Shown here one piece after another: positions 7,136 through 16,416 of a stretch of DNA of 64,000 nt; positions within the stretch are counted from its first letter, which is position 1; each line of letters opens with the position of its first letter. The stretch is from contig NZ_ALVU02000001.1 in NCBI RefSeq assembly GCF_000332075.2, positions 1,321,193 to 1,385,192 on the forward strand, in the 5' to 3' direction. The notes beneath the pieces were generated by a model that was not told the DNA's origin, did not search any database, and was given only the letters and a program-made list of their open reading frames with translations. The translations under genes and the position numbers were made by a program. The DNA comes from Synechocystis sp. PCC 7509 (GTDB taxonomy: Bacteria > Cyanobacteriota > Cyanobacteriia > Cyanobacteriales > Chroococcidiopsidaceae).

Positions 7136-10100
7136 TTAACCAGCTACAGCTAAAGCTCCGGCAATTGCCGAACAAATAGCTGAAACAATAGCAGTTCCAG
7201 CCAACCATTGAGCAGCCGTTGCCGCCGCTTTACGAGTTTCTTCCGCTTGCTTTTGTGCCTGACGCTTAACGTCTTCCAAACGGCGTTGAGCCTCTTGCTG
7301 AATGCGTTCGGCTCGTTGCAATACGCTGTTACGCGCTCCTTCAATTTGATCGATAATCCGGTTAGCATCAGCCTCGCTAATATCTTCACGAGAACTCATG
7401 ACTGCAACTAGAGTATCGCGGTTGAAAGAACCTAGGCGATCGCGAATCGAATCAAAACCTGCTTGGGGATCGTCAAACAACTGACGCACATCGCGTTTGA
7501 TGCCATCATAGTTGAGTTCAGGACGGTCAAGAGCATTGAGGTAGTTGCGAATTTGACCAAATACGCCATCAAGGGTATCTTGAATCCGTCGTTGTACTGC
7601 TCTTACTTGTTCGACAAATTGTTCGCGTACAGCGAGGACTTGATCGACAATCCGCGCCGCTTCTTCCTCTGACATATCGCCTCGCGCTTGCAGTAAAGTA
7701 ACTACTGTATCGCGGTCAAAATGCGCCAATCGGTCGCTAAAACTTTCTACCCCAGCGCGTGGATCGTGAATTAATAGCTGCAAATCGCGCTTAATTGCTT
7801 CAGGATTAAGTTCATCTTTGCCAGTATTTCGCAAGTAATCTTCGACGTTAGATTGAAATGTTTGAACTCTTTGTTGAGTTCTAGCAGCTAAACGTCTGGG
7901 ACTTTTGACGATATTACGAATCGAGCCTTGTACTCCGTCAATAACTTGGTTTACCTGCTCTTCGCTCAAATCTCGGCGTTGACTAAGCAATTGCACCAAA
8001 GTATCGCGATCAACTTGAGACAAGCGGCGGCGTAAAGCTAACGCTCCCTCTTGGGGATTTTCAAATAGTCTAGAGAAGTCGCGGGCAATTCCTTCAGGGT
8101 TCAATTCATCTTTACCAGTATTTCGCAAGTAATCCGATAAAGTAGTTGTCACCGAGTCGTACTGATCTTTAGCTAAAGCAGCGACGTTTTGCGGTGCGTG
8201 GCGGAGGCTTCCCCAAGTTGATTCTACTTGGTCGATGGTTTGGTTAATTTGCTCCTCATTCAAGTCTTGACGCTGATTGAGCAACTGTACCAAGGTATCG
8301 CGGTCAAAACGAGATACACGCGATGCGATCGCACTCATCCCAGCAGAGGGATCGTTTAACAAAGTTTTGAGTTCCGACGCGATCGCATTGGGGTTAAGTT
8401 CGTCTTTGCCGGTATTTCGCAGATAAGACTCTAAATTTAACCATAGCGACTCGGCTTGCGCCTTAGCTTGGTCAGCGATATTTTGCGATTCAAATAGTAC
8501 GCGATCGCGCTGGGATTCTAGCAAGCCCACAATTTCCTCTGCTTCCGCTTCAGAAACATCATTACGCTGAAGCAATACTTGGCGCATAGACTCTCGATCT
8601 AACCCTGCTAGGCGAATGCTTAAGGTTTCATGACTTGCCTCAGCATCTTGTAGCAAAGGCTTAAAAGTGCGCTCTACGCCTTCTGTTGTCAGTTCTGACT
8701 TACTTGTAACTAGCAAATAGCTTTCTACGGCTCGTTGCAAGTCTTGGGCGGCTTCTTTCTCCTCTTGCGCTCTTGCCATCATTAAAACTTCAGTACGGAT
8801 GCTTTCTAAGCGATCGGCAATCGAGGCAATTTGCGTTTGGGTAAGAATTCCGCGCTGTTGCAATAGTTGCACAAAATCGTTGCGAGAAAGCTGTTCTAAT
8901 TGACGGCGTACTGCTCCGGGATCTGCCGCCGGATCGTACAATACATCGTGAAATTCCTGAGCAATCTTGTCTTGACTCATTTGCCAAGAATAAGTGTTAA
9001 GCAGGTAATTTTCCACATCGGCGCGAATTGTACTGTAAGGCAAACTAGGAGTTTTAACACCGGTTTGCGTTGCAACTTTATCTACTTGCTCGGTTACTTT
9101 ATCTTTGGCGCTAGTTAACGAGCCGATAATCTTCTCTACATCAAAGTCTGACAAGTCCGTGCGTCCCATGACTAACCCAATTAGGGTATTTATCCCGGTT
9201 TGCATAATACCTGGAGTATTTTCTTGGGCCGCTTTTTGGCTAGTGTCTTTTGTTTGACGCATTTCTGCCATTAATTTGTCAATTTTGGCATCTAATTCAT
9301 CAGTTTTTGTTTGTCCCGGCGCAACGCTTTTGAGATACTCTACCATTTCTCCCATCCGGTCAGTTTGGGGTTCTTGGCGATCGACTACTTGCTTCCAAAC
9401 GCTTTCTAATTGATCGACAATCCGGTTCATATCTTTTTTAGATAAGTCCGTGCGACTGCTGACCAATTCCACAAACTTTTGTCTATCTATATTCCGTAAA
9501 TCGCTACTTCCCGCCACGGCTTTTAGTTGTGGATCGCTGAGTAACTTTTCAAATTCGCCCTTAATTTTGCTTAAATCCAATTCGGGGGGACGCAGCATTT
9601 GCAAATAGTCTTCAACATTTTCCCGAATACTCATCGGATCTACGGCCGATCCTAGTTCGCGGCGGATTGCTCCGGCGGCGGCTTCGGCGGTAGCTACTAC
9701 TTGATTATTTACAGCTTTTGCTCCCAAAGCGGCGGCGGCTGTTCCCATCAACGCCTGCACCCCAGAGGTTGCAGTATTGATAAGTGAACCAATTAGCGAG
9801 CCTACACTACTTGAACCTATCCACACTAAGAGCAAGAAGTAAGCTGCCCAAATTACTAAACCAACGATCGCGCCAAGTCCTGAACTTGCAATCAAACTTA
9901 GTTTTACTGCCAAAAAACAAGCGATCGCTAAAGAAATACTGACACTAATTAAAGTTCCTAGTCCTAAAGCCGTGCCAATTTTGCGAATAGTACCACCAAA
10001 ACTTGTTGCTTCTTCATCCGTGCGATCGCTTTCCCCTTCGTCGGAACTACGTCCCAAAAGAAAGGCTACACCAACATTAGTTAGTAGTAGCTGTACGGCA

Positions 10101-10261
10101 AAAGCCAGCACTACCCCGGCAATTAATGCTACAAAGAATTTTGGTCCTGAAAACAAAAGTGCCGCATCTTCTGGAGTTTGCACCCCTTCTGTAACTGGAA
10201 CTTGCGCTAACCAAAATAGCGTTTTTTCAAGCCCCAGTGTTATCCCAATATGTTCAAACAT
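7136..10261 (-). CDS. large membrane protein with tandem helical repeats
   Basis: 1041 residues. Hydrophobic helices lie at about 41-68, 100-123 and 127-150. A long charged helical region follows, and a final hydrophobic, alanine-rich stretch covers 1016-1041. The soluble part contains seven full copies of a ~77-residue repeat, at about 212-288, 412-489, 508-587, 606-682, 705-780, 803-880 and 901-978, plus a half copy at 356-389. The consensus runs YLRNTGKDELNPEGI, then a ten-residue DP-containing loop, then FDRDTLVQLLxQRxDLSEE and INQxIDQVES. Spacers are charged coiled-coil-like segments. No enzyme motif is present. I do not recognise a named family; it looks like a membrane-tethered scaffold or spacer. 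ATG start; alone on its strand. Confidence 0.8.
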   Translation of the reverse strand: MFEHIGITLGLEKTLFWLAQVPVTEGVQTPEDAALLFSGPKFFVALIAGVVLAFAVQLLLTNVGVAFLLGRSSDEGESDRTDEEATSFGGTIRKIGTALGLGTLISVSISLAIACFLAVKLSLIASSGLGAIVGLVIWAAYFLLLVWIGSSSVGSLIGSLINTATSGVQALMGTAAAALGAKAVNNQVVATAEAAAGAIRRELGSAVDPMSIRENVEDYLQMLRPPELDLSKIKGEFEKLLSDPQLKAVAGSSDLRNIDRQKFVELVSSRTDLSKKDMNRIVDQLESVWKQVVDRQEPQTDRMGEMVEYLKSVAPGQTKTDELDAKIDKLMAEMRQTKDTSQKAAQENTPGIMQTGINTLIGLVMGRTDLSDFDVEKIIGSLTSAKDKVTEQVDKVATQTGVKTPSLPYSTIRADVENYLLNTYSWQMSQDKIAQEFHDVLYDPAADPGAVRRQLEQLSRNDFVQLLQQRGILTQTQIASIADRLESIRTEVLMMARAQEEKEAAQDLQRAVESYLLVTSKSELTTEGVERTFKPLLQDAEASHETLSIRLAGLDRESMRQVLLQRNDVSEAEAEEIVGLLESQRDRVLFESQNIADQAKAQAESLWLNLESYLRNTGKDELNPNAIASELKTLLNDPSAGMSAIASRVSRFDRDTLVQLLNQRQDLNEEQINQTIDQVESTWGSLRHAPQNVAALAKDQYDSVTTTLSDYLRNTGKDELNPEGIARDFSRLFENPQEGALALRRRLSQVDRDTLVQLLSQRRDLSEEQVNQVIDGVQGSIRNIVKSPRRLAARTQQRVQTFQSNVEDYLRNTGKDELNPEAIKRDLQLLIHDPRAGVESFSDRLAHFDRDTVVTLLQARGDMSEEEAARIVDQVLAVREQFVEQVRAVQRRIQDTLDGVFGQIRNYLNALDRPELNYDGIKRDVRQLFDDPQAGFDSIRDRLGSFNRDTLVAVMSSREDISEADANRIIDQIEGARNSVLQRAERIQQEAQRRLEDVKRQAQKQAEETRKAAATAAQWLAGTAIVSAICSAIAGALAVAG

Positions 10262-10681: not shown

Positions 10682-10879
10682 ATGGAAAGCAAAACGACAA
10701 ATTTACCACCCGTAGCCACAGCCTACAACGGCAAAGACCGCAATACTTTCTTATTTGGTTGGAATCCTCAAGCTGAGTTATGGAACGGACGCTTGGCGAT
10801 GATTGGTTTTTTAGCTTATTTACTTTGGGATTTGGCTGGTTACAGTGTAGTTAGAGATTTGTTACATCTAGTAGGCTAA
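10682..10879 (+). CDS. high-light-inducible protein (one-helix CAB family)
   Basis: 65 residues with a single transmembrane helix carrying the chlorophyll-binding signature of the LHC/ELIP/HLIP family: AELWNGRLAMIGFLAYLLWD, residues about 31-50. The glutamate, asparagine and arginine form the chlorophyll-binding and helix-crossing motif. Such proteins accumulate in thylakoids under excess light and bind chlorophyll and carotenoid in complexes with photosystem II assembly factors. The N-terminal 25 residues are polar and stromal. ATG start; monocistronic, closed by a strong palindrome. Confidence 0.93.
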   Translation: MESKTTNLPPVATAYNGKDRNTFLFGWNPQAELWNGRLAMIGFLAYLLWDLAGYSVVRDLLHLVG

Positions 10880-10994: not shown

Positions 10995-12101
10995 CTAAGA
11001 CGGTTTTTTTAACAGCGTCCAAAATTGAGATCCACCACCAGAACGAGGAGAGTAACCAATCGCACCTCCCCAACGCTTAACAGTAATTCGGCAAAAGTAA
11101 AGACCTAGCCCAACTTTTCCAACTTTGTTTCTACCTTGAGAAAATTTCTTAAATAAGTTGTTAGCCATCTCTGGCGATACACCTACACCTTCATCCATTA
11201 CAGAAATTAAAATATTTTGTTGCTGTTGTTGCAATTGGACAATTACAGTAGAGTGCGGTGGGCTATAGCGAAAAGCATTTTCAACTAAATTTGTTAATAC
11301 TCGATCTAAACGTGATTTTTCACCTACAACTTTCCACTCTTGAGTTGCATCGTTATTTACTACCAAGTTCAAATTAATGTTATTGGCATTAAAGTTAGGT
11401 AGTAATGCTTCTATTACATCTTTCGCACAAACCAGAGCATCGGGTGCTTGTTCTGGATCGACGGTAAAAACTTCTAATGATTCTACTTCCGCCGAAAAAG
11501 CATTTAATATATCTTTAATCAGGTTCTCTTGTTTGATCGCTTGTTTTTTACCTGTTTTTAAATATTCTATTCCTTTCAAAGTTAAATTTTGAAAGCTAAG
11601 GAGATCGAAGCAGCATTTAATTGCTGTTAATTGTCCCGCTAAATCGTGGATAATACAGTGAATTAAAATTTCTTTTTTCTGTATTTCTTTTACTAATTTT
11701 TGATAATCTAGATTACTTTCTCGACATTTTTGGATCAAAAATTGCTTTTCTTGATAAGCTTCCTCCACTAAGGAAATCAACAATATTTTTGTATTTTTTA
11801 AGCATAAAACTGAAGCTTCAAAATGGTATTCGTTCCCCGCTTCGTCTACTTCAGTCCATAGCGGCGATTGAAGTTTTTGACTGCTGTTACTTGCCCAAAA
11901 TTCTCCGGCATCAATCATGAAATTTTCCAGAAAAGGAAACTTTGTTTTTGGGTCTAGCTTTTGCTGTTCTGTTGCTTCTGGATAAAATTTAATAAACCAA
12001 CTGGGAATTGTGCCAACCATTTTAAAATAACCGTCAGCTAATAATTCCAGAACAACTATGTCTAAGGCGGCAAAAAGGTCATATTCAATAGTTTTAATCA
12101 T
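10995..12101 (-). CDS. sensor histidine kinase, last gene of GTPase operon
   Basis: 368 residues. No transmembrane segment is seen, so it should be cytoplasmic. Residues 1-115 form a PAS-like N-terminal module ending KILLISLVEEA. A coiled coil at 116-147 leads to the dimerisation helix with phospho-acceptor His152 (IIHDLAGQLTAI). The ATPase domain is complete: N box NLVENAFRYS (Asn275), G1 DEGVGV (303-308), LFKKF, G2 GKVGLGL (328-334), and a final GGSQFWTLL. The ATG overlaps the stop of the cyclase-like gene as TAATG. No response regulator follows, so the target is unknown; the neighbouring proteins are the natural candidates. Confidence 0.88.
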   Translation of the reverse strand: MIKTIEYDLFAALDIVVLELLADGYFKMVGTIPSWFIKFYPEATEQQKLDPKTKFPFLENFMIDAGEFWASNSSQKLQSPLWTEVDEAGNEYHFEASVLCLKNTKILLISLVEEAYQEKQFLIQKCRESNLDYQKLVKEIQKKEILIHCIIHDLAGQLTAIKCCFDLLSFQNLTLKGIEYLKTGKKQAIKQENLIKDILNAFSAEVESLEVFTVDPEQAPDALVCAKDVIEALLPNFNANNINLNLVVNNDATQEWKVVGEKSRLDRVLTNLVENAFRYSPPHSTVIVQLQQQQQNILISVMDEGVGVSPEMANNLFKKFSQGRNKVGKVGLGLYFCRITVKRWGGAIGYSPRSGGGSQFWTLLKKPS

Positions 12102-13117
12102 TACTTTGTCCTACAAGAATAAGTCTTTATTGATGCAGAAGCTGCTGATTTTATATTTGTTGATTCCAAAAAATATTTTTGCATATCATTAATTCTATTA
12201 AACGTATTTTCATCAATTAAAATTTCTCTAGGCTTGACCTTACTTTTTAAGTGTGTCGATAAATCGACGGGATGTCCAATAGCAAAAAAAGTTTTATTGG
12301 CTTTACTCCCAATTAATCCCAAGGCTACAAAGCCAGAAGTAATAGTAATTCCAACCTCAAGGTTTATATCTGGTTGTCGTCGGTGGTTTATTTCTTGAAT
12401 AAATTTGAGTATTTGAAATGCGGTGGCGATCGCTTGCACTGGAGGATAGCCTGTAGAAGGCAAAATGCCAAACAAGCTAATTGTAGTATCTCCGATTATT
12501 TTATCAATCATTCCAGCTTCATCGAGAACTGATTGAACTATAGAAGATAAATAAAGATTCAAAGTTTTTAATGTTTGTTCTGGCGAATTATGTTCGCTAT
12601 AAGCAGTAAAATCGCAAATTTTGGTAGACAATATAGTAATATCACGGCGATCGCCTTGCTCGTTTAGAGTTAGTAAGCCTTGAGCTAAATTTTCTTTTAC
12701 TTCTTTACCAAAATAATGATTAATTATTTTAGCTTGTTGGCTTCTAAGTAAACTAAGATCGTTGCCTTTTTGTTGCATCAACTGATAGCGATCGCGCTCA
12801 ATACGTACATCTAATAGCAATACCCAATCGCCTTGATTGCTGGGAAACATATGTATATCCGCACACATTCCCGGCTCTATATGAGTCGCAGGCAATACTA
12901 CTGTTGTATTATTTAATGGTAGTAGTCCTTCTAATAAAATAAATTGTTTGCATCCCAGTTTTCCTATTTGCAGATTATCGATCCCATAAGCTGACAAATT
13001 GCCACCCCATTCTAATAAATAGCCATCTTTTGTTAATAAAAGATAGGCAAGAGAGCGGTTTTCTAAAATTAAGTTACTTAGGTAATTAAGAATTGCTGCC
13101 GGGATATCATTACTCAT
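12101..13117 (-). CDS. class III nucleotide cyclase-like protein, catalytic residues lost
   Basis: 338 residues from the ATG at 13117, which overlaps the GTPase stop (TGATG); a GTG one codon upstream is also possible. Residues 1-125 resemble the PAS-like module of the kinase next door (GDWVLLLDVRIERDRY matches the position of KILLISLVEEAYQEKQ). Residues 155-300 align with class III cyclases: ILSTKICDFTAYSE, KIIGDTTISLFG, AIGHPVDLSTHL. The first metal-binding Asp is Lys166. The transition-state Asn and Arg of the VNLAxRL motif are Asp285 and His289. Only the second metal Asp (Asp210) remains. Probably a catalytically inactive nucleotide-sensing or docking domain. Confidence 0.82.
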   Translation of the reverse strand: MSNDIPAAILNYLSNLILENRSLAYLLLTKDGYLLEWGGNLSAYGIDNLQIGKLGCKQFILLEGLLPLNNTTVVLPATHIEPGMCADIHMFPSNQGDWVLLLDVRIERDRYQLMQQKGNDLSLLRSQQAKIINHYFGKEVKENLAQGLLTLNEQGDRRDITILSTKICDFTAYSEHNSPEQTLKTLNLYLSSIVQSVLDEAGMIDKIIGDTTISLFGILPSTGYPPVQAIATAFQILKFIQEINHRRQPDINLEVGITITSGFVALGLIGSKANKTFFAIGHPVDLSTHLKSKVKPREILIDENTFNRINDMQKYFLESTNIKSAASASIKTYSCRTK

Positions 13118-13614
13118 CACTTCTCCAACATTTTTTCGGTTAAACTTAAAAATGCTTGTTCTACACCCAACCCAGTTTTTGCACTACTTTTAATTATTAT
13201 CCACCCCTTTTCTATAAGTTCATTTATCATCAAATCTTCAATTTCCCAATCTTCTGTTAAATCGTACTTGTTTAGTAATAAAATAAAGGGAACTTGACCG
13301 ATAGCTGTCTCTACTCTTTTTTGTAAACACAAAGCTCTTTCTAACGTGTGTTTGCGCGTACCATCTACTACTAAAAAATAACCCGAAGCACCGCGCAAGT
13401 AAGACATTTGAATTTTTTGAAATTCATCTTCGCCGTGAATGTCCCATAAAATTAAAGTTACTTCTTGTTTATTTAATTGAACGGTTTTTTTGTCAATTTT
13501 TACTCCTACAGTAGAATGATAAATATCGGAATATATACTTTTGACAAAACGTGCCACTAGGCTAGTCTTTCCGGTAGCAAAAGCTCCTACCATACAAATT
13601 TTTTTCTGAATCAT
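13117..13614 (-). CDS. Ras-like small GTPase
   Basis: 165 residues, almost nothing beyond the G domain. P-loop GAFATGKTS at 10-18, switch I Thr35 in HSTVG, G3 WDIHGEDE with Asp58 and Gly61, G4 NKYD at 115-118, G5 SSAK at 143-146. Numbering up to Thr35 is the same as in Ras, so the Gly12 position is Phe12; the Gln61-equivalent is Glu62, which predicts unusual hydrolysis. No lipidation motif or membrane segment. It is three bases after the OmpA-domain gene and overlaps the cyclase-like gene, so its partners are probably these proteins. Prokaryotic Ras-like GTPases of the MglA and Rup groups act with Roadblock proteins. Confidence 0.92.
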   Translation of the reverse strand: MIQKKICMVGAFATGKTSLVARFVKSIYSDIYHSTVGVKIDKKTVQLNKQEVTLILWDIHGEDEFQKIQMSYLRGASGYFLVVDGTRKHTLERALCLQKRVETAIGQVPFILLLNKYDLTEDWEIEDLMINELIEKGWIIIKSSAKTGLGVEQAFLSLTEKMLEK

Positions 13615-13617
13615 TGA

Positions 13618-15630
13618 TTATTGAGTTTTGAATTTATCAGTTAAAAAAACTTTAAAGGTAACCCTGCGATTAATCTCTTGTTGAGACATAGTATCTTTCG
13701 CAAGTAAAGGTTGTTTTGTACCTACCCCGACAGCAGTAATATCTGTACTAATTAATCCTTGAGCTTTTAGGTAAGATAAGATCGTATAAGCGCGGTTTTG
13801 ACTCAATAGTAAGTTTTTGTCTTCTGCACCACTATAACTTGTATGTCCGATAATTTGAATTTGGGCATTTTTGTTGTGCAAAGGTGCAGCGCTAGATATT
13901 TTATTGAGTTCCTGGACTAAAAGGCTTATTCGTGGTTCTTGTCCAGCTATAAGTTTACTATTTCCCAATTGAAAAATAAAAATTTGTTTTTCTATATTTT
14001 GTTTAAGTATTTGTAACTGTTGGTAATCTATTTGAATTAAATTGCGATCGTTATAATTAGTAATTCCCGGAATAGCTTTTACTAACTTTTGAGTATCAAC
14101 AATCCATTTTTGATTGGCAGAACCTTGAGCAGATAGTACGCCATTATTGTCTATTTTTAATAATACTGTGGGCGGCGGCTTAAGGATTTGATAAACTCTA
14201 GCAATAAATATACTTGGTTCAAAAGATAAGTAAGGCTCCCAATGACTAACAACGGCTTGAGGATTGATTTTTGCCGATTGTAAAATCAAGAGCGGATCGG
14301 CGGCTAAAGGATCTCGTAATCCCGACAGTTGATATTTCCCATGACGTTTTTCAAAACCAGTAACTACCATCCCTGGCTGCTGATTTAATTTTTCAATGTA
14401 AGCTATCCAACGTTGGTTTTCTTGATAAGCAATAAACCCCCAAGCGGCTAGAGCCACAACTATAGAACCAGCTAATATTGGTAGAAGGGGAGAACCTTTT
14501 TCTTTTTTGATTGCATACTGAGCTTGCAAGCATTCTTCTAAATATTCTCTACTAGCTTCAAAGGGTTCATTATCACCATCAAAAGCTGCAAGTTGAGGAT
14601 GAAAATCATTATGAATTTTTCCAATTACATCTTGAAAAACTAGCCTTAATTCTTGGGGGGCATTTCCTCGAATTACCCCTGCCAAAATTGCTTCAGAACC
14701 TTCTTCAATCCAAATAGTTAGTTCTCCAAACCGCAAAGTTTCTAAGCCTTCGCCTTGCTGGACATGAAAAGAATCTTGAACAAAATCTTGAATAGCTCTA
14801 AGCATGGCGGAAACTAAGTCAGCATCTTGAGCCGCTACCAATTCTACAACAATATGTTGCAATACTAAGCTAGTGTTTTTGTGAATCAGAAATACTTGCT
14901 CGACGCGATAAAGAAGCGTGCGCAGTAAAACTACTTCAGCAAAAGATTTACCTGTTTGTTTTGCTTCTAATCGCCATTTAAAACTTTGTGGAGATAAGCT
15001 ATGTTCTAGAGTTTGATTTAAAGATTGAACTAAGGTACTAATTGCCACATGAATAGCTTTGCGGATGGCGGGCCCAATCACAGGAAAAATAGCATTGGCA
15101 ACAATATTGATATCTTGTTTGACCGATAGTTGCAGAGCTTCTTCAATAGTTGGTAATAAAGCTTTTGTAAGTTTTTGCTGTCGTTGCAACGACAGCAAAA
15201 TAAGTGCTTCGGGAAGTACACTGCTTAAATCTTCCGCATATAGCTGAGGATTGTCTAAACGCTCTTGCAATCTATCTAGTTGAATTTGCTCTGGATTAAA
15301 TAGCAATTGACGCAGTTGAGCTAAGGCGGCTTCGTTGGGATCGTTGCTGGGTGGTAATTTGCCGTTGTTTTCCTGGGGAATTACTTCGCGCCGTTGAATA
15401 GCATCTTCTGCGGAGCTTGGGGTAGTTTGTGCTGGTTCGTTAATTAATAGCAAATTTCTTAACTGAGAAATCGTTTCTTCCTCTGGGTTAATTTCTGGCT
15501 GAGACTGGGGATTTAAGAGCAAATTCCGCAATAGCGCGATCGCTTCCTCATCGGTAGCTGGGGAATTAAAAGCATCATTAGAGGAATAGTTAGTCAATGC
15601 CCTAGCACCTAAAATTAAATTGGCGGACAC
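13618..15630 (-). CDS. transmembrane OmpA-domain protein with Roadblock-like middle region
   Basis: 670 residues. Cytoplasmic half: three copies of a short helix motif (IALLRNLLLN 31-40, ISQLRNLLLI 54-63, LAQLRQLLFN 103-112). A helical block with RLDNPQLYAEDLSSVLPEAL (124-143) is followed by a region at about 240-345 whose pattern resembles Roadblock/LC7 (VEQVFLIHKNTSLVLQHI, DADLVSAMLRAIQDFV, FGELTIWIEEGSEAILAGVI). One transmembrane helix at about 381-402. The periplasmic half has a BON-like stretch and an OmpA peptidoglycan-binding domain at 545-668 with GHTSYSG, Asp604 and Arg613. No signal peptide, so it should sit in the inner membrane with the OmpA domain reaching the wall. GTG start; no nearby ATG. 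Confidence 0.85.
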   Translation of the reverse strand: MSANLILGARALTNYSSNDAFNSPATDEEAIALLRNLLLNPQSQPEINPEEETISQLRNLLLINEPAQTTPSSAEDAIQRREVIPQENNGKLPPSNDPNEAALAQLRQLLFNPEQIQLDRLQERLDNPQLYAEDLSSVLPEALILLSLQRQQKLTKALLPTIEEALQLSVKQDINIVANAIFPVIGPAIRKAIHVAISTLVQSLNQTLEHSLSPQSFKWRLEAKQTGKSFAEVVLLRTLLYRVEQVFLIHKNTSLVLQHIVVELVAAQDADLVSAMLRAIQDFVQDSFHVQQGEGLETLRFGELTIWIEEGSEAILAGVIRGNAPQELRLVFQDVIGKIHNDFHPQLAAFDGDNEPFEASREYLEECLQAQYAIKKEKGSPLLPILAGSIVVALAAWGFIAYQENQRWIAYIEKLNQQPGMVVTGFEKRHGKYQLSGLRDPLAADPLLILQSAKINPQAVVSHWEPYLSFEPSIFIARVYQILKPPPTVLLKIDNNGVLSAQGSANQKWIVDTQKLVKAIPGITNYNDRNLIQIDYQQLQILKQNIEKQIFIFQLGNSKLIAGQEPRISLLVQELNKISSAAPLHNKNAQIQIIGHTSYSGAEDKNLLLSQNRAYTILSYLKAQGLISTDITAVGVGTKQPLLAKDTMSQQEINRRVTFKVFLTDKFKTQ

Positions 15631-15661
15631 AATTGGTTAAATTGAAAAACCCCTTTGTACT

Positions 15662-15687
15662 AGCCTAGCCAGATTGAGCGCTAGGCT
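15662..15687 (-). promoter_or_regulatory. intercistronic hairpin, possible attenuator
   Basis: On the minus strand AGCCTAGC and GCTAGGCT form a perfect 8-bp stem with a 10-base loop, between the coiled-coil gene and the OmpA gene. No immediate T run follows, only GGGGTTTTTC some ten bases later. It may lower or process transcription into the four-gene unit. Confidence 0.4.
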
Positions 15688-15726
15688 TAGTAAAGCCTGA
15701 CAAATTGTTATTGAGGCTTTTCAAAT

Positions 15727-16416
15727 TTATTCATTTAATTGCATAGCTACTTGCGTCAATAATGCCGCCAAAGTCGAACGATCGGCTTTATCGCTGCGCA
15801 ATTCCTGAAATTCTCTATTCACGGCACTTAGTATAGATTCATACTTTTGCCGCATATCATCATCTAGATTTTTTGACTGATCGAGAATCTGTTGGCGTAA
15901 TTCTCGCTGTCTTTGGTTGCTTTGTTCGTCTAATTGTCCAATTTTTTTCTCTAAAGATTTGGTTGTATCTTTAACTTCTTGAGCAACTTCTTTAGTTGTT
16001 TCATCTCTTTGCAATTGCTCGGTTTTTAATCCTTCGTTTAGTGCCTCTACTTCTTGTTTAATATACATTTCCAGGGAGTCTAAACGCTTTTTAACGTCGT
16101 CCCGGATGCTACCAAGCTCGTTTACTAAACGATCTTCTAGACGATTAAATCTTTTTTCATAATCTCGCATTTGCCCGCCAAAGAGAATATCGCGGACTTT
16201 ATCTAAGTTGCCTCCACCTGCTAAATCGGTAGCAGAAAGTTGAGATTTATTCACTCCTTGCATTTGTCCAGATTTTGATGGTTCTACTGCAATATAAGTA
16301 ATGTGTTCGTCTTCGGAATTATTCATGATTTTTACTTTTTTTTGAGTTGGTTCGCGTTCAGGGCTTTGTTGTTCTACTACTACGTAAGTGATGTATTCAT
16401 CTTCAGAATTATTCAT
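15727..16416 (-). CDS. coiled-coil protein upstream of OmpA/GTPase operon
   Basis: 229 residues. The C-terminal 160 residues are a long charged coiled coil, opening with LDKVRDILFGGQMRDYEKRF (75-94) and ending LAALLTQVAMQLNE. No membrane segment or enzyme motif. The N-terminus is duplicated: NNSEDEYITYVVVE (2-15) and NNSEDEHITYIAVE (32-45), each preceded by Met, so translation could begin at 16416 or at 16326. It lies 96 bp upstream of the OmpA gene on the same strand with a hairpin between, so it is either the first gene of that operon or separately tuned. Upstream, on the minus strand, TTGACA followed 17 bases later by TAAGCT is a candidate promoter. Confidence 0.78.
   Translation of the reverse strand: MNNSEDEYITYVVVEQQSPEREPTQKKVKIMNNSEDEHITYIAVEPSKSGQMQGVNKSQLSATDLAGGGNLDKVRDILFGGQMRDYEKRFNRLEDRLVNELGSIRDDVKKRLDSLEMYIKQEVEALNEGLKTEQLQRDETTKEVAQEVKDTTKSLEKKIGQLDEQSNQRQRELRQQILDQSKNLDDDMRQKYESILSAVNREFQELRSDKADRSTLAALLTQVAMQLNE

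Follow-up and report, generated by a model that had tools for sequence, protein, structure and literature searches.

A gene block of Synechocystis sp. PCC 7509 matching the Group 1 Rup systems places a Rab-like GTPase beside a transmembrane OmpA protein with a predicted longin-type domain

The stretch of DNA analysed here (the window) comprises 64,000 nucleotides of the 4.9-Mb genome of the cyanobacterium Synechocystis sp. PCC 7509 and harbors a block of five genes, referred to below as CC, OMPA, GTPase, CYC and HK, which encode a coiled-coil protein, a single-span protein ending in an OmpA domain, a small GTPase, a class III cyclase protein and a histidine kinase. All five open reading frames were confirmed, on the minus strand, where the initial annotation of the window had placed them; proteins like those of this block are termed window-type throughout. 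The block matches the Group 1 Rup systems catalogued in 2014, its first three genes keep their order across many bacterial phyla, and the inner domain of OMPA is predicted to adopt a longin-type fold. The genes and their parts are the following.

15727..16416, minus strand: CC, a 229-residue cytoplasmic coiled-coil protein and the first gene of the block, with only coiled-coil-type Pfam matches
13618..15630, minus strand: OMPA, a 670-residue single-span protein with an N-terminal helical region, a predicted longin-fold domain, a transmembrane helix, a BON-like region and an OmpA domain
14512..14916, minus strand: predicted longin-fold domain, OMPA residues 239-373 (AlphaFold2, Foldseek, VIA-align), presumably cytoplasmic
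14419..14487, minus strand: transmembrane helix, OMPA residues about 382-404 (hydropathy; a helix in both models)
13666..13914, minus strand: OmpA C-terminal domain, OMPA residues 573-655 (Pfam 1.7e-12), Asp replaced by Ser598, Arg613 kept
13117..13614, minus strand: GTPase, a Rab-like small GTPase of the Group 1 Rup type, 165 residues (Pfam Ras 6.9e-29; G3 DIHGE)
12101..13120, minus strand: CYC, a class III cyclase protein (Pfam 1.7e-13)
12713..13120, minus strand: N-terminal output ('effector') domain, CYC residues 1-136 (homologue alignment), with a conserved QQ (Q116/Q117)
12119..12646, minus strand: degenerate class III cyclase domain, CYC residues 159-334 (Pfam 1.7e-13 and residue table)
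10995..12101, minus strand: HK, a soluble histidine kinase of 368 residues (HATPase_c 9.5e-22), its motifs conserved in homologues
11676..12101, minus strand: N-terminal domain, HK residues 1-142 (homologue alignment), with a conserved Q124

The tight minus-strand coupling described earlier can be read as such in the DNA: the stop codon TAA of OMPA is followed by TCA and then by the ATG of GTPase, leaving a 3-nucleotide gap, the GTPase/CYC junction is a TGATG overlap, the CYC/HK junction is a TAATG overlap, and the coiled-coil gene lies just upstream, 96 nucleotides from OMPA. This 96-nucleotide gap holds an inverted repeat (AGCCTAG...CTAGGCT; 15640-15700, minus strand) that could form a hairpin and so separate the expression of CC and OMPA. 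The start of the CC gene (16290-16416, minus strand) contains a near-duplicate of itself, MNNSEDEYITYVVVE... / MNNSEDEHITYIAVE..., with a second ATG about 30 codons in. Promoter and terminator scans gave site counts no higher than in shuffled DNA.

Relatives of the GTPase are present in 39 of 60 related genomes. Ten related genomes, from the same and the neighbouring family, carry a block of the same kind with GTPases 68-87% identical to that of the window, and a second, divergent type is found in more than 20 other genomes of the order, where identity to the window is about 40% for the GTPase and about 25% for OMPA and where the genes for the coiled coil, the OmpA protein and the GTPase still lie close together in nearly all cases. 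Counting strong matches, 33 of the 60 genomes (that of the window included) have both GTPase and OMPA, 26 have neither, none has GTPase alone and one has OMPA alone; the two are thus jointly present or absent in 59 of the 60, and the exception is an assembly that is 61% complete. A scan of named genomes queried with the inner part of OMPA yielded at least 533 relatives. The locus counts come from the 80 with the strongest OMPA homology, which are 55-66% identical in Nostocales and 47-54% in Acidobacteriota, Nitrospirota, Thermodesulfobacteriota, Verrucomicrobiota, Zetaproteobacteria and others. CC is the gene immediately before OMPA in 69 of the 72 loci that could be read, and OMPA is followed at once by GTPase, on the same strand, in 65 of 77; the commonest OMPA-GTPase gap is 14 nucleotides, and several pairs overlap by 4 nucleotides. 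Constant gene order across genomes, which the initial annotation had named as its first check, therefore held: the CC-OMPA-GTPase order is not due to chance and is kept across many bacterial phyla. The OMPA domain occurs in 75 of 390 genomes of the class, in 11 of these as a window-type protein (E < 1e-100), and a tree of the domain places all cyanobacterial window-type proteins in one fully supported group, suggesting that the protein was inherited vertically from early on and lost many times, and not transferred recently.

Some loci depart from this layout. In two Desulfomonile loci (L133, L136) GTPase and CYC lie on the opposite strand just downstream of OMPA, with HK upstream of CC, and in two loci of Deltaproteobacteria/Desulfobacterales (L123, L134) an HK and a GTPase nearer the second type stand divergently upstream of CC; in all of these the parts are reshuffled yet still together. 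Broken copies also occur, with OMPA split in L111, CC split in L041 and CYC shortened in L042.

The GTPase was annotated as a stand-alone Ras-like protein, and a separate 165-residue gene with its Pfam Ras match bears this out. Its nearest solved chains are Rabs, with Rab23 best at 8.5e-25, and the GTPases of a Coatesbacteria member and of the second cyanobacterial type likewise find Rabs as their best matches. The G3 motif reads WDIHGE in the window, with Asp rather than the Thr of the MglA type, and the D..G pattern recurs in all but one of the 71 GTPase homologues scanned. At the position of Gln61 the window has Glu, as do 63 of 71 window-type sequences; the second type has H, Q, S, E or R there. 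By these sequence features the GTPase is Rab-like, not MglA-like. We also considered a specific kinship with Rab23, given its first rank and the appearance of Fuzzy, part of the Rab23 guanine nucleotide exchange factor (GEF), among the longin matches described below; it was rejected, other members being closest to Rab10/Rab23/Rab21 or to Rab5/RABF2b, and our claim is limited to a general Rab likeness of the family's sequences.

For the inner part of OMPA, AlphaFold2 modelled residues 92-410 from an alignment of 73 natural homologues. It predicts a ββαβββαα longin-type domain at residues 239-373, immediately ahead of the membrane helix, the helical region preceding the domain being poorly predicted. 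A second prediction from a different alignment reproduced this topology, most of the domain reaching a pLDDT of about 90. Foldseek placed clathrin-adaptor sigma chains, Sec22b and Mon1-Ccz1-type longins at the top (TMt 0.72-0.74), with an MglB match lower and poorer (3.2e-3, TMt 0.43, rmsd ~9). The best VIA-align match was Sec22b (Z 14.6, 2.6 Å over 125 residues), followed by Ykt6 (13.8), Fuzzy (12.6), AP sigma (12), TRAPP (11.8), a Lokiarchaeota longin (10.8) and Mon1-Ccz1 (10.5), many longin matches exceeding Z 10; MglB was not among the 50 VIA-align matches listed, which does not in itself exclude a match. Conservation is among the highest at the helix GMLTAIQDF. Sequence searches returned less: a search of the genome itself with the Roadblock profile PF03259 gave no match, Pfam on 18 OMPA homologues gave no Roadblock or longin family among the matches listed (E up to 10), and a PDB sequence search with a profile of the domain gave no meaningful match and no longin chain. 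The longin and Roadblock folds are sisters: a circular permutation, or the choice of the helix that flanks the core, relates one to the other (PMC3521125, PMC10933270). The earlier description of this region as Roadblock-like thus stands at the level of the superfamily and is weakened for Roadblock itself, a longin being the best structural match and Pfam finding no Roadblock. The assignment of this 2014 'domain of unknown function' to the longin type, predicted as it is, appears to be new.

The remainder of OMPA contains one hydrophobic segment, starting at residue 382 with a hydropathy maximum of 2.26, and, outside the OmpA domain, no Pfam match. In second-type proteins, BON domains lie between the membrane helix and OmpA; the corresponding window-type region is BON-like in the model with no Pfam match and is duplicated in some other phyla, the OmpA/BON region as a whole varying strongly among phyla. 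Two Ghiorsea loci (L131, L142) encode OMPA homologues of about 810 residues with several repeated BON-like units after the transmembrane helix and a weak OmpA-like end. At the position that we take, from general knowledge of OmpA structures, to be the peptidoglycan-contacting Asp, the residue table gives Ser598 in the window, with Arg613 kept; cyanobacterial window-type proteins frequently carry Asn or Ser there, 27 of 32 rows of an alignment with second-type proteins carry D, and most of the latter have Asp. A single-span protein binding peptidoglycan outside had been proposed; the single span and the OmpA domain are there, and the peptidoglycan-binding Asp is not.

Both outputs carry N-terminal regions without a Pfam match, over the first ~150 residues of CYC and the first ~260 of HK. 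The cyclase domain of CYC, already noted as degenerate, lacks one metal Asp (replaced by Lys), the adenine-site residue, the transition-state Asn (replaced by Asp) and the Arg (replaced by His), and is, judged from these residues, catalytically dead in this lineage; the catalytic residues are all intact in the zetaproteobacterial Ghiorsea homologues of L131 and L142. In most Nostocales CYC is reduced to a separate N-domain protein, 37 of 48 homologues having 123-142 residues. This N-domain is homologous to that of second-type outputs (hhalign 1.3e-10, probability 97%), and its nearly invariant Q117 aligns with their invariant Q125. Its fold search gave one weak PAS match among 22 (0.012) and no PDB sequence match. 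HK is the soluble kinase that had been described, with its phospho-acceptor His in 54 of 55 homologues and the N box and G boxes of ATP binding conserved. Outputs differ among relatives (HK, cyclase and others) and have the N-terminal domain and its Gln in common, which gives that domain the look of a GTPase effector domain.

These features coincide with a published description, and the view that the system was undescribed does not survive it. Group 1 Rup GTPases, found in cyanobacteria and other phyla, were catalogued by Wuichet & Søgaard-Andersen in 2014 (PMC4316618), who reported as their neighbours a coiled-coil protein, a protein consisting of a domain of unknown function, an inner-membrane helix and OmpA, and an output protein (GGDEF/EAL or histidine kinase) whose N-terminal region has an invariant Gln; the G3 Gln of the GTPase is missing, no coupling to MglB was found, conservon-like signalling was proposed, and no member had been characterised as of 2014. 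In the openly licensed literature we found no later experimental work on Rup systems. Set against that description (a small GTPase of 150-240 residues, a G3 Asp, no conserved G3 Gln, coiled-coil and domain-transmembrane-OmpA neighbours, an output with an invariant Gln), the block shows every feature tested and by sequence and neighbourhood matches a Group 1 Rup system. It differs in having two outputs, a class III pseudo-cyclase and a histidine kinase, and in that the domain left unknown in the catalogue, which counted no Rup coupled to MglB, is here predicted to be of longin type.

Taking the observed gene order, co-occurrence, homologies and residue losses together with the predicted fold, we propose, with confidence that stands midway between doubt and acceptance, that the block is an envelope-to-cytoplasm Group 1 Rup module in which a longin GEF or platform acts on the Rab-like GTPase, which in turn controls HK. 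We infer that OMPA spans the inner membrane, its longin domain facing the cytoplasm and its OmpA/BON-like part the periplasm. The longin domain, probably dimeric and perhaps organised by the coiled-coil protein, would recruit the GTPase and either promote nucleotide exchange on it or serve as a docking platform; small GTPases bind Roadblock/longin dimers in a conserved orientation, such dimers are mainly GEFs, and longin-type domains are mainly GEFs or platforms and sometimes GTPase-activating proteins (GAPs) (PMC10933270). The loaded GTPase would bind the N-terminal domains of the outputs and thereby control HK, and the invariant Gln of their N-domain may stand in, in trans, for the one missing from the GTPase (a proposal made in PMC4316618). 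CYC, in this lineage, would act through its N-terminal domain only, as a regulator of the GTPase or a competitor for it.

Several points weigh against this proposal. The block is missing from several genomes of the same family and is therefore dispensable. No longin or Roadblock sequence model matches the OMPA domain and no curated family covers it. Longin domains are also found in SNAREs and adaptors that have no exchange activity. When OMPA and GTPase were modelled as one chain by reading through the stop codon, purely as a modelling device, each part folded well and the model had no inter-domain confidence (pTM 0.47), making it uninformative on binding. With Ser598 in place of the peptidoglycan-binding Asp, the tie to the wall is uncertain in this genome. 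The link of the HK N-domain to the other outputs is weak (hhalign E 0.003, probability 10%), although the match is collinear and aligns the same Gln (Q124), and no response regulator lies beside the HK gene.

The alternative that survives best, possible and in our judgement rather improbable, makes the longin domain a scaffold only, which would localise the GTPase to envelope sites marked by OMPA (poles, septa) and leave the nucleotide cycle to the output Gln or to other factors. Longin domains are often platforms (PMC10933270), the output Gln is conserved and the OmpA/BON region is strongly variable between phyla, all of which this alternative accommodates, whereas the conservation of the GMLTAIQDF helix suggests more than passive tethering. 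The present results are compatible with it and with the GEF version alike. The initial annotation had instead envisaged an MglB-like partner, that is, a Roadblock-type GAP held at the wall and acting as MglB does on MglA. That sister folds bind GTPases similarly (PMC3521125, PMC10933270), that MglB does appear in the Foldseek list and that a GTPase without its own catalytic Gln needs a GAP somewhere all speak for it, but the MglB superposition is far poorer than those with longins, Pfam finds no Roadblock, and the GTPase has a G3 Asp and Rab-type rather than MglA-type similarity; given the predicted longin fold and the missing Roadblock match, the MglB/GAP analogy is weaker than that with a longin GEF or platform, and we regard it as unlikely. 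Least probable by some way is that the wall-binding protein, the GTPase and the kinase are co-expressed for separate jobs with no single pathway, for while kinase and cyclase are missing or replaced in some relatives, CC, OMPA and GTPase remain contiguous in many phyla as well as in two divergent families, and GTPase and OMPA co-occur as counted above.

Comparison with better-known systems sets the proposed longin module in context. Like the block, MglA/MglB of Myxococcus and Thermus place a small GTPase gene beside that of a Roadblock/longin-superfamily partner, which there is a soluble Roadblock GAP and here a transmembrane protein with a predicted longin-type domain next to a Rab-like GTPase. 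Actinobacterial conservons (CvnA-D) likewise join a histidine kinase, a GTPase and a protein with a GTPase-partner domain in one operon, with an MglB-type roadblock protein, a sensor kinase bearing an LPxR motif and an MglA-family GTPase (PMC4316618, PMC13343842). Eukaryotic longin regulators of Rabs (TRAPP, Mon1-Ccz1, Fuzzy-Inturned) share the longin fold (Z 10-12.6) and Rab-type GTPases; they are hetero-oligomeric cytosolic GEFs, whereas here the domain, as predicted, belongs to one membrane-spanning protein whose OmpA domain would lie in the periplasm. A relation to Zorya defence (ZorA/ZorB) was rejected: CC has no hydrophobic span where ZorA has a MotA-like membrane domain, and the PADLOC matches cover the coiled coil and the OmpA domain only, parts shared by chance.

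It has been proposed that Group 1 Rup GTPases are relatives of the Rab/Ran/Ras/Rho branch in bacteria and possibly its donors (PMC4316618). For the longin domain, an origin from the Roadblock proteins that partner MglA in prokaryotes has been put forward (PMC3521125), and longins have otherwise been treated as features of eukaryotes or Asgard archaea (PMC10933270). Only tentatively, and with more doubt than belief, do we suggest that a genuine longin-Rab pair is present in many bacterial phyla, consisting of a transmembrane, envelope-coupled longin exchange factor and a Rab-like GTPase. If that were true, the pairing that underlies membrane traffic in eukaryotes would also be found, as an operon, beyond archaea and eukaryotes, either through ancient relationship or through independent evolution. 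A predicted longin domain beside a Rab-like GTPase across phyla would allow ideas on how the longin-Rab pairing arose to be tested in bacteria amenable to culture and modification, model Nostocales included, and it gives the uncharacterised system of 2014 a concrete biochemical hypothesis, GEF or platform. Overall, the block is a real and conserved system, catalogued but unstudied, whose modelled fold assignment is potentially important, and the bacterial longin-Rab pairing is the part most worth following.

Two neighbours lie beyond HK. Close downstream of the block (7136-10261, minus strand), a gene encodes a 1041-residue protein that has a membrane region at its N terminus and contains repeated modules like YLRNTGKDELNP...; homologues 67-70% identical stand at loci L067-L072, L098 and L103, making it a conserved neighbour in many Nostocales. 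Between it and HK, on the opposite strand (10682-10879, plus strand), lies a small gene of the high-light-inducible type (HLI), whose placement between the kinase gene and that of the 1041-residue protein is retained in many relatives.

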